Source: Planctomycetaceae bacterium
GTDB lineage: Bacteria > Planctomycetota > Planctomycetia > Pirellulales > Pirellulaceae
Assembly (NCBI GenBank): GCA_007694185.1
Contig: RECD01000168.1
Location: 1-32,710, forward strand
Length of the DNA: 32,710 nt
Direction: 5' to 3'
Part shown: one piece after another, positions 2,616-32,710 of the stretch
Position numbering within the stretch: the stretch's first letter is position 1
How the letters are laid out: each line of letters opens with the position of its first letter
The notes under the pieces: generated by a model
The model's input: only the letters and a program-made list of their open reading frames with translations
Told to the model about the DNA's origin: nothing
The model's database searches: none
Translations under genes and position numbers: made by a program

Positions 2616-3557
2616 ATGAGAATCCTGTCGCTGTTGCCGGCGGCTACCGAGATGGTCGCCTACCTCGGTTTGGCCGATTCGCTTTGCGGGATCTCGCATG
2701 AGTGCGATTACCCGCCCGAGGTCGTCGGGTTGCCGCGGGTTACTCGGTCACTCGTTCCGGCCGACGCATCCGCAGCGGAAATCGATGCGATCGTCCGCGA
2801 GCGTGCGAATTCCGAAGCGTCGCTTTACGATTTGGACGCTGACTTGGTGGCGGAACTCCGTCCCGATTGGATCATCTCTCAAACGCTGTGCGACGTCTGT
2901 GCGGTCGCGGACGCGGACGTCGAGCGGGCTGTCCGCGGTTTGGCTCACCGGCCGCAACAGGTGAATTTGCAACCTCAGCGCTGGGCCGATGTGATCGCGG
3001 GGTTGCGGCAGATCGCGGAGGCTGTCGGCGATGCGGGCCGAGCCGAATCGCGGATCGCGGAGTTGTTGGAGCGGGTCGAACGGGTTCATCAGCGGAGCGT
3101 TTCGAGCCGTCGATCGCCGCAATCCGTCGTGGTCTTGGAGTGGCTCGATCCCCCCTTCACCGCCGGGCACTGGACACCGGAATGGGTCGAAATCGCTGGC
3201 GGCCGCGAATTGCTGGGGCAAGCCGGGATGCGATCGCGACCGACCGATTGGCGGACGATTTGCCAGGTCGACCCGGACGTGTTGTTCATCGCCTGTTGCG
3301 GCTGGGAACCGGCACGGACGCGGGGCGAATTGCCACTTTCGCCCGACCGGTTGTCGGCGGTGCCGGAATTGGCCGAATTGGCCTGCGTGCGGCATGAACG
3401 CGTTTACCTGGCGGATGGAAACGCCTACTTCAACCGTCCCGGGCCGCGGTTGGTCGACAGCCTTGAAATCCTCGCCCATGCGATCGACCCCGAGGTGCAT
3501 CCGTTGCCCGAGGGATTGCGCGACCGGGCTGCCGTGCCGGTCCGATTGGTGTTGTGA
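2616..3557 (+). CDS. Cobalamin-binding-type periplasmic-binding-fold protein (BtuF-like)
   Basis: At 313 residues this matches the class III (helical-backbone) substrate-binding fold of BtuF and iron-siderophore binding proteins. It opens with MRILSLLPAATEMVAYLGL and then SHECDYPPEV. It also contains TLCDVCAV, WLDPPFTAGHWTPEW and a C-terminal YFNRPGPRLVDSLEIL segment, all typical of proteins annotated as cobalamin-binding. There is no signal peptide or lipobox, so as started here the protein looks cytoplasmic, unlike classical BtuF. No BtuC or BtuD permease/ATPase gene is next to it. Cobalamin or corrinoid handling is the likely role, but the ligand is not proven by the sequence. Confidence 0.75.
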   Translation: MRILSLLPAATEMVAYLGLADSLCGISHECDYPPEVVGLPRVTRSLVPADASAAEIDAIVRERANSEASLYDLDADLVAELRPDWIISQTLCDVCAVADADVERAVRGLAHRPQQVNLQPQRWADVIAGLRQIAEAVGDAGRAESRIAELLERVERVHQRSVSSRRSPQSVVVLEWLDPPFTAGHWTPEWVEIAGGRELLGQAGMRSRPTDWRTICQVDPDVLFIACCGWEPARTRGELPLSPDRLSAVPELAELACVRHERVYLADGNAYFNRPGPRLVDSLEILAHAIDPEVHPLPEGLRDRAAVPVRLVL

Positions 3558-30598: not shown

Positions 30599-30673
30599 AA
30601 AAAAGTGTCCGGAACCTTTTGCGAGGAACTCGCCCTTCGGGTGCTTCGCACAAAAGGTTCCGGGCACTTTTTT
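30599..30673. repeat. REP-like cloverleaf palindrome, copy 2
   Basis: Same element as at 54-123. Arms at 30605-30621 and 30651-30667 pair with one wobble-type difference (GGGCAC for GGACAC) and are extended by A6/T6. Inside are GCGAG/GAA/CTCGC (30621-30633), CCC/TTC/GGG (30633-30641) and GTGC/TTC/GCAC (30641-30651). The inner hairpin block is in inverse order compared with copy 1, while the right flank (T-run, CGCTC-TTGCTT, then a hairpin at 30691-30706) is in the same order. Confidence 0.8.
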
Positions 30674-30722: not shown

Positions 30723-31058
30723 TCATTCACTTTGCACGATGTCGGCGGACAGCATTTCAGGGTCATGAATTTCAAGCACGACGCCATTCGCCACGTCGCG
30801 TGCGCCTTCAGCGAGCGAGAATACCGCACCAATTTGCAATCGGTTGCGCTGCAACTCGGGTCGAAAGAATGTCAGGTCGGCAGTGACGCATTTGCCGGGG
30901 GATACAGATTCAGCGTCGTGTAACGTGATTGACACGTCGTTGTTGCGTCCGAGGTATCGGAATTGCGGTCGGTACCCGCTGGAAATCGGATAAAGGCGTC
31001 CGCCGTTTTCCGTCGTCATTAGCTTGATTCGAGCGCGCAGATGTGGGTTTGAATCCAT
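30723..31058 (-). CDS. Stand-alone EF-Tu domain-like small protein
   Basis: This 111-residue protein resembles the beta-barrel domain of elongation factor Tu without the GTPase part: HLRARIKLMTTENGGRLYPI, SSGYRPQFRYLGRNNDVSITL, SVSPGKCVTADLTFFRPEL and FSLAEGARDVANGVVLEI. In EF-Tu this barrel binds aminoacyl-tRNA and partner proteins, but a role for the isolated domain is not known. The ATG at 31058 lies 17 nt after the crossover point of an attC-like site (31076) in the same orientation, as in integron gene cassettes. No attC was recognised on its other side, where cloverleaf copy 2 sits. Confidence 0.75.
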   Translation of the reverse strand: MDSNPHLRARIKLMTTENGGRLYPISSGYRPQFRYLGRNNDVSITLHDAESVSPGKCVTADLTFFRPELQRNRLQIGAVFSLAEGARDVANGVVLEIHDPEMLSADIVQSE

Positions 31059-31069
31059 TTTTAAGACTT

Positions 31070-31165
31070 AGCGAACGGGGGCGCATCAGCGGGCCAGCGC
31101 CATGTGCATGACTTCAAAACCGACCCGACCGCCGCCGCTCCCGTGCATGCGATGGCTCTGTCACG
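31070..31165 (-). other. attC-like integron recombination site 1 (degenerate)
   Basis: Read on the minus strand, the site ends with an R' box GTTCGCT (31076-31070). One arm contains GCCGCTCCCGTGCAT (31134-31148), identical to the arm of the better site at 32358-32372. CGCAT pairs with ATGCG, and the rest of the stem (CAGCGGG, CCAGCG) is only partly complementary. The R'' box near 31153-31160 is poor. Position just ahead of the EF-Tu-like gene and the shared arm support the call. Confidence 0.55.
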
Positions 31166-31252: not shown

Positions 31253-31486
31253 CTAGCGGTTAACAGTCGGAGTCCATGTAACCGTGAGACGATCCGATGC
31301 AGCGTTCGTCAGTGTAAGCATATCAACAGGATTGTTTCGGTACAATCTGGTAAGTCGGCCAACGGCGGTGTCGTTCTGCGCGTTCGATTTGTACGAGATG
31401 AGGCCTGTCGAGGTGCTCAGGTTGTGTAAATGCCAAGCTTTGTCGGCACCGCTGAAAGAATGTGTCGCCCTCCGGGCTCTGTGAGT
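31253..31486 (-). other. Unassigned open frame before attC-like site 1
   Basis: A 77-codon minus-strand frame lies between stops, with no convincing start codon. It ends ...DRLTVTWTPTVNR about 90 nt before attC-like site 1 and has cassette orientation. The composition is protein-like, but I recognise no family. It could be the tail of a damaged cassette gene. Confidence 0.25.
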
Positions 31487-32181
31487 TTATTTTCCTGGTT
31501 CCGGTGGCTTACGCCACCGGCAAGTCTGTGTCGCCCTGCGGGCTGAGATCTGCCTGCCGGTTGCGCTAGCGCTACTGATGCCGACGCGGGGTCTCAGGTG
31601 CTGCGAGGAACTGGGGACAACGTTCGGATGTTGCCGGCAATCGCTCGCGCCGTTGGTGCCGTTGGAGGGCTGGGGCGTACTGGCTGCGGGTAGCTGCGAA
31701 GGTTTTCGGGCTTGGTGGGCAGCGTCTTGGGAGCGGTTCGCGCGAAGGCGCGAAGACGCGAAGTTTTGAAGGTTCGTGTAGCGATTTTTTGTAGGTGATT
31801 TTCGTGGATTTGATGGCCGTGGGGCGCGGCGGAGCGTGAGGACCGAGAAGTGAGGTACACAGCGCGGTGGGTGAGCCGATCGAGTGCGCTGTTGATCTGC
31901 GACCCCTGCGGGGTCGACGGCGTTTTTTTTGCGTCTATCCCCGGGTGCGCTGCGCGACCCGGGGCTTATAGCTTTGATGCCTTCGGCATAGGGAGGTGAG
32001 AGGGGCGGTGAGGCTTGGCGGGATGTGAAGCGGGGGACAGCCGTGCGTTGGCGAGGCGGCCGGTTTCATTGGCAAGTATGTGTCGCCCGCCGGGCTAAGA
32101 AGACAGGCGGTCATGCTCCGGGCTATCACCGTTTGTGCCGTTGGCACGCTGACGGCCATCTTCCGTTCCGTCCGACGGAAC
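31467..32181. repeat. Cluster of mini-hairpins with mostly three-base loops
   Basis: Ten small inverted repeats occur in 715 nt: GCCC/TCC/GGGC (31467), an 8-bp stem with TTAC loop (31501-31520), GCCC/TGC/GGGC (31533), GCGCTAGCGC (31563), CGACCCC/TGC/GGGGTCG (31900-31916), CCCCGGGT...ACCCGGGG (31939-31964), ATGCC/TTC/GGCAT (31977-31989), GCCC/GCC/GGGC (32085), GTGCC/GTT/GGCAC (32135-32147) and GTTCCGT/CCG/ACGGAAC (32165-32181). A GCGCGAAGGCGCGAAGACGCG direct repeat lies near 31739-31760. No intact gene occurs in the cluster. Confidence 0.7.
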
Positions 32182-32284: not shown

Positions 32285-32300
32285 CACGACAGTCTAGCAC

Positions 32301-32380
32301 GACGAACGATCACGGGGCGGCGACGATTGATCTTCCATTTCACCTCCGCCCGACTTCGCCGCTCCCGTGCATCGAATTGT
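32301..32380 (-). other. attC-like integron recombination site 2
   Basis: On the plus strand CGAT (32307-32310), CACGGG (32311-32316) and GCGGCG (32317-32322) pair with ATCG (32371-32374), CCCGTG (32364-32369) and CGCCGC (32357-32362). This leaves single unpaired bases C32370 and T32363 on one arm. Two extrahelical bases on one arm of a long stem are the hallmark of attC sites. The R' box is GTTCGTC on the minus strand (32307-32301). The opposite box is interrupted after AATTGT by a group II intron. The integrase gene is not in the window. Confidence 0.72.
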
Positions 32381-32710
32381 GTACGCCCGGCATGGGCGTG
32401 ATTGTTGTGGGGTGCGAGTCCCCTGTACGAGTTTGGGAACCTTTTTTAGTCGGAGGTCAGTATACCAAATGATCGCTCTGCAAAGGGAAGTACGAGGCGA
32501 AGGCAACTGCGTCCGGGTGACCGGGGGTGGGAAGGAAGCCTGCGGACGTATGGGTAAGCGCCGGGTCTGTTCAGCCCCACCCGGATGCGTCCACGCCAAA
32601 GCTGCGAGGTCACGAACAGAAACGCGGTACAAGGCCGGAGAGGTCAGGCGAGTGTGCCCAACATCACGAAGCCGTCCCCAGACGACCGCTCAGGTAAACC
32701 GCGGGCTTGT
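32379..32710 (+). ncRNA. Group II intron, 5' part (probably class C, attC-inserted)
   Basis: The intron starts near GTGTACG at 32379 (plus or minus 2). ACGCCC/GGCAT/GGGCGT (32383-32399) and GGGG/TGCGAGT/CCCC (32409-32423) follow, which are familiar helices at the start of domain I in bacterial group II introns. Sequence such as GGCAACTGCGTCCGGGTGAC continues in the same style. It begins inside the R'' box of attC-like site 2 and runs opposite to the cassette genes, as known for class-C introns that insert into attC sites. The reverse-transcriptase gene and 3' end lie beyond the window. Exact boundaries are not proven. Confidence 0.7.

Follow-up and report, generated by a model that had tools for sequence, protein, structure and literature searches.

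A group IIC-attC intron of the planctomycete kind directly behind an attC-type hairpin at the end of a Planctomycetaceae contig

The last 413 bases of a 32,710-nucleotide stretch of Planctomycetaceae DNA (GenBank assembly GCA_007694185.1, contig RECD01000168.1; this complete contig, C29 in our numbering, is hereafter called the window) consist of an attC-type hairpin followed without a gap by a group II intron, both on the plus strand. The intron is well supported as a planctomycete representative of the already known group IIC-attC introns, and we regard it as highly probable that a mobile intron of a planctomycete lineage was reverse-spliced into the bottom strand of the attC site, just after TTGT. 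For introns of this group it has been described, in the part of the source consulted, that the bottom strand of attC takes the place of IBS2 and that insertion occurs in the R'' box at TTGT/T, opposite to the cassettes (PMC7923331). The original prediction, made from the letters of the window, was a class C attC intron, and the covariance model of the hairpin, the junction, the orientation, the intron core and the clade of the relatives' reverse transcriptases (RTs) all agree with it.

The start of the intron was read from its relatives. A DNA search with the intron as query hit 31 of 147 genomes, counting the own one, over lengths between a few dozen bases and the full query, and the matches of the relatives start mostly at query positions 5-9, equivalent to 32377-32381 of the window. 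A start at 32412, where a GTGCG motif had been the first candidate, was dropped because the relatives' homology begins at 32377-32381. Side-by-side comparison of the flanks in 40 stretches fetched around the relatives' intron matches places the first conserved intron base at 32381 (GTACGCCC onward) and leaves TTGT (32377-32380) in the exon, as a 5' half of the target that fits the published TTGT/T. The upstream hairpins vary between copies, even inside one genome, while the intron is conserved from GTACGCCC; the hairpin is therefore the exon and the intron the mobile part. The junction GAATTGT/GTACGCCC is identical letter by letter over 15 bases between the window and a class 1 integron intron of Pseudomonas putida, and a T directly follows the intron end in all 11 copies printed. 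The 5' part of the intron, covering the domain I region (32381-32710, plus strand), was also aligned with six other copies, that of P. putida among them, and the group II covariance search suggested with the original prediction found the D1-D4 core at 32511-32710 on the plus strand (Rfam RF02001, 69.3 bits, E 4.7e-12, gathering score 32), a match that is cut by the contig end at 32710.

The 5' exon, 32298-32380 on the plus strand, is an attC-type site (site 2) and presents its bottom strand. Its stem (32307-32374) pairs a 5' arm CGAT-CAC-GGG-GCGGCG (32307-32322) with a 3' arm CGCCGC-[T]-CCCGTG-[C]-ATCG (32357-32374), and the two extrahelical bases first proposed from the letters were found as T32363 and C32370, both on the 3' arm only. 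Its fold energy (32290-32415) has a z-score of -1.66, 13 of 200 shuffles being equally good, which is weak evidence by itself; single-strand fold energy was therefore set aside as evidence of attC, since the values of -1.66 for this site and +2.14 for a second site upstream (site 1) are not decisive, and a covariance model was used in its place. This model, R1, was built from 23 hairpins of other genomes, with the site of the window kept out of the training set. From 51 blast matches, 28 sites were picked by eye (two of the loci had been fetched twice, L041 being the same as L076 and L042 the same as L077), and the 23 that entered the alignment (A1) were selected for an AACG 79-83 nt before the intron; the invariant AACG of the model is thus there by construction, and the covariation of its stem is not. 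R1 has a stem of 17 pairs with two unpaired positions on the 3' arm, the same two that are unpaired in the window. In the 23 model sites, 90.1% of the stem cells are paired against 62.3% after shuffling (reached in 0 of 500 shuffles), two-sided changes occur in 97 cells against 31.7 (0 of 500), and 15 of the 17 pairs show a change on both sides against 11.9 (2 of 500). In the window, R1 matches 32298-32380 on the plus strand with 52.7 bits (E 6.4e-13), and the match ends at 32380, the last exon base. That the hairpin arose by chance and the intron was misread has the unremarkable fold energy in its favour and nothing more; at this level it is refuted by a hairpin with an E of 6e-13 and an intron with an E of 5e-12 that adjoin to the base, and we give it practically no credence.

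Site 2 departs from its counterparts at the far outer box. Comparison with the 28 relatives' sites, 23 of which have AACG 79-83 nt from the junction, puts its R'-side core at CACG (32298-32301), 83 nt from the junction; an AACG does exist at 32305-32308, but at 76 nt it lies 3 nt below that range. The outer box named originally as the place of the intron start is thus right in part: TTGT, the putative IBS1, directly precedes the intron start at 32381, and the core on the R' side is either CAC or displaced. With CAC instead of AAC at 32298-32300, the site may recombine poorly, and its core letters suggest that it may be a poor substrate for the integrase.

A further R1 match in the same orientation lies at 31074-31155 on the plus strand (25.6 bits, E 2.9e-5). 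This site 1 is weak and degenerate, with several mispairs and, as judged by eye, a GCT where the GTT of the R'' core is expected, and its single-strand fold is worse than in 200 of 200 shuffles. Beside it, in a cassette-like position, a 111-aa ORF (30723-31058, minus strand) encodes a stand-alone homologue of EF-Tu domain 3 (PF03143, 30.9 bits, cut-off 27); its best match in 98 genomes, self excluded, is a 108-aa frame in G036 with 38% identity, and many other matches fall in frames of some 400 aa, the size to be expected of EF-Tu itself. The intron, on the bottom strand of attC, thus lies opposite to this ORF, and its proposed antisense orientation to the cassettes is confirmed. R1 had no third match in the window at E <= 10, and hence no attC match after the EF-Tu-like ORF, so that the array here is short or decayed. 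Dispersed repeats also occur in this region: an inverted repeat with AAAAAAGTGTCCGG arms (30599-30673) is found at roughly a dozen other places in the genome, and a repeat of about 230 nt (31315-31548) recurs, whole or in part, in more than 20 further places at 75-91%, one copy adjoining an RT fragment on contig C210 and a partial copy adjoining a domain V-like end on C274. The same genome has other integron traits. R1 scored at least 15 sites in it at E <= 1 (150 of 4142 first-look candidates were scored), two of them those of the window and four standing consecutively on C4, and the C-terminus of an integron integrase (89 aa) was found at the start of C144 (TIGR02249, E 2e-36, 125.9 bits against a full-length cut-off of 265), besides four further Phage_integrase matches.

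The association of the intron with attC sites that differ from each other is repeated among the relatives. In 45 loci (40 from relatives and five from the own genome) R1 found 100 sites, of which 41, including the 23 model sites, have an intron start listed within 12 bases of their end. The other 59 were scored empty, at least two of which (L061:2818 and L085:147) precede intron-like starts missed by the list of copies; NTG[GT]T stands at the insertion position in 42 of the 59, and the stricter TTG[GT]T in 23. Across the sites scored empty (44 of 59 usable), complementarity between the four outermost bases of R' and those of R'' is weak, at 1.86 against 1.58 after shuffling, with 34 of 1000 shuffles as high. 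Site and intron of the same locus agree in strand for 92 of the 100 sites by script, an agreement that is trivial for the 23 model sites; seven more sites, all in L073, accompany an intron match that is also on the plus strand and absent from the script's list, and one site in L074 disagrees. At E <= 0.01, five genomes contained 24, 41, 65, 85 and 115 R1 matches. The model had no match in L101, a real class 1 integron with attC sites, and is therefore tuned to planctomycete sites rather than a general model of attC.

Full-length relatives supply the half of the intron that the window lacks. Five of them, 2012-2040 nt long, each encode an RT with YADD and carry a domain V-like motif at the 3' end, recognized by motif; the Rfam domain V model RF00029 had no match at its gathering score in these five copies, and it matches all five ORF-less copies of genome G023 (see below), the shorter copies of G027 and one intron of L064. 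The RT of L057 scores 406 bits with TIGR04416 (group II RT/maturase), and the class C RT GsI-IIC is its best match of solved structure. Among named RTs, those closest to the RTs of the relatives come from Pirellulaceae, Gemmatales and Planctomycetales records, and plasmid matches to a relative's RT reach up to 57.8% identity among the 12 matches listed, in a search of up to 5000 records. In a tree of 65 RTs, the rows labelled attC and those labelled terminator, the labels being assigned by eye from the flanks and 21 rows being unlabelled, fall on two sides (100/100). Eleven planctomycete RTs group together in a single branch (99/98) on the attC side of class C, and a twelfth planctomycete row, L126 from Sedimentisphaerales, stands outside that branch and elsewhere on the attC side. 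For this tree, 79 loci yielded 58 translations, 57 of which were used, most of the others being left out as near-copies; L134 was excluded for its 25 stops and the plasmid locus L102 for an RT match in two pieces. As observations apart, an intron copy of L106 starts near 3473 directly after the 3' end of another intron (..CCCTTACCCGAT/GTACGCCC), a tandem insertion, and L053 has two copies of 1424 nt, 98% alike, with a frame that lacks the first 111 residues of the RT, in the same attC array as a full-length copy.

Class C introns are found mostly behind transcription terminators, according to the parts of two sources consulted (PMC4424553; PMC8919778), and in one relative, L076, the intron lies in a long, perfectly paired hairpin unlike attC. 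It could thus be argued that the intron of the window is an ordinary class C intron behind a terminator hairpin whose likeness to attC is accidental. We consider this very unlikely, because the hairpin fits the attC model with its bulged bases and conserved spacing and has no T run, R1 matched 0 of 12 terminator-labelled loci against 12 of 67 loci in the same search, the own genome has the attC array on C4 and the integrase C-terminus, and the RTs of related introns are on the attC side of the tree.

The contig of the window, which stops 330 bases into the intron, before the 3' exon base and the other half of R'', contains neither an RT nor a domain V, and the rest of the genome was searched for the missing half with PF00078, RF00029, TIGR04416 and the intron DNA of a full-length relative. 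No group II RT exceeded the TIGR04416 cut-off of 300 in the assembly, whose RT-like remains are a piece of 37 residues on C210 and RTs on C180 and C130. The two latter were rejected as the RT of this intron, that of C180 (L017) with 260 bits, below the group II cut-off, and that of C130 with 25 bits in the group II RT model. The C180 RT adjoins cas1- and cas2-like ORFs, as read from translations, and is possibly a CRISPR-associated RT. C274 has a domain V-like intron end that continues into other sequence, C129 breaks off within a domain V-like stretch whose last bases are the same as on C274, and weaker pieces are present on C48 and C97. On C193, the bases after an unoccupied attC are TCTGGCGTTTCTTCGGT, and identical bases come after the intron end on C274. 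An exact search with 26 bases from near the end of the window had no match among the genome contigs searched.

The window copy could be a dead 5' fragment, the contig ending at a true truncation instead of a break in the assembly: neither an RT nor a domain V is joined to it, relatives have truncated copies as well, and in the own genome there are domain V pieces that stand without the rest. We hold this to be rather unlikely, since alignment of the 330 bases to full-length planctomycete copies needs only short gaps, the homology reaches the contig end, and the domain V-like stretch in which C129 ends is what an assembly broken on both sides of a repeated intron would show. An intron present in several copies would break a short-read assembly on either side of the repeat, and this is the likely origin of the contig end.

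The more unusual points are not in the intron of the window but in its relatives, some of which insert within the stem or have lost their ORF. In at least nine copies (two in L055, one each in L056, L062, L063 and L066, two in L078 and one in L081), the 5' exon stops within the stem of the hairpin, five of these copies having the exon end TGCA/; joining the exons of L066, GTGCATG/CCGTTGTTCC, completes a basal stem of five pairs, GGCAT/ATGCC. The RTs of L055, L076 and L110 form a sub-branch (100/99), and the single locus L055, together with the likeness of the intron 5' ends, suggests a link between this sub-branch and the in-stem copies. Genome G023, a single contig, contains ORF-less copies, at least five in number, that measure 804-808 nt and are 96-99% alike; all five are matched by the domain I-IV and domain V models and retain some 77 residues from the beginning of the RT. 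The single RT-like match of this genome (70 bits) is under the cut-off, so that copies this much alike stand in a genome with no group II RT over the cut-off; they may have spread in trans, or the RT may just have been lost. It is conceivable, if somewhat doubtful as a whole, that the window intron belongs to a planctomycete IIC-attC branch with large integron arrays as its niche, two target modes (after the hairpin at TTG[T or G]/T, and inside the basal stem, e.g., GTGCATG/CC in L066) and shedding of the RT. In the parts of the literature that we searched, attC introns and ORF-less introns are each described, and nothing was found on their combination.

As to how the window insertion would have come about, published class C work suggests that the excised intron RNA with its RT/maturase would recognize the attC hairpin folded from single-stranded DNA instead of an IBS2, EBS1 pairing with TTGT and EBS3 with the T after it. 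The intron RNA would then insert by reverse splicing and be copied into DNA by the RT, leaving an intron antisense to the cassettes, presumably capable of splicing, that splits the R'' box and would block the use of the site by the integrase.

A covariance model of Planctomycetes attC sites has already been published, in a paper whose main text does not contain the word intron (PMC8352920, consulted in part), and in the literature searched we found no report of IIC-attC introns in planctomycetes; we make no claim of priority. Our results indicate that planctomycete attC arrays, with many sites per genome, harbour resident introns of the kind known from hospital integrons. These arrays offer a natural setting for studying how an RNA recognizes a folded DNA hairpin and how its insertion affects the mobility of cassettes, as well as for asking whether ORF-less copies are mobilized in trans.

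The closest known counterparts are the IIC-attC introns of class 1 integrons, such as the two on the P. putida plasmid pVIM_Pse-KSS14, which has intI1 and both introns antisense to the cassettes; we read them as being of the S.ma.I2 type, a name taken from reviews consulted in part and not from the record. They likewise stand after TTGT at an attC hairpin, they have the 5' end GTACGCCC.GCATGGGC.TGA in common with the planctomycete introns, and one of their RTs is 51.3% identical to that of a full-length planctomycete relative. Unlike them, the planctomycete introns have RTs in a branch of their own, the last base of their target is T or G, and their attC sites are of a kind that R1 finds, whereas those of class 1 integrons are not. 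With the terminator-targeting class C introns of Bacillota, they share a class C RT, GsI-IIC being the nearest solved one, and a related intron 5' end, but those introns have upstream hairpins that, by eye, resemble terminators, and their RTs fall on the other side of the tree.
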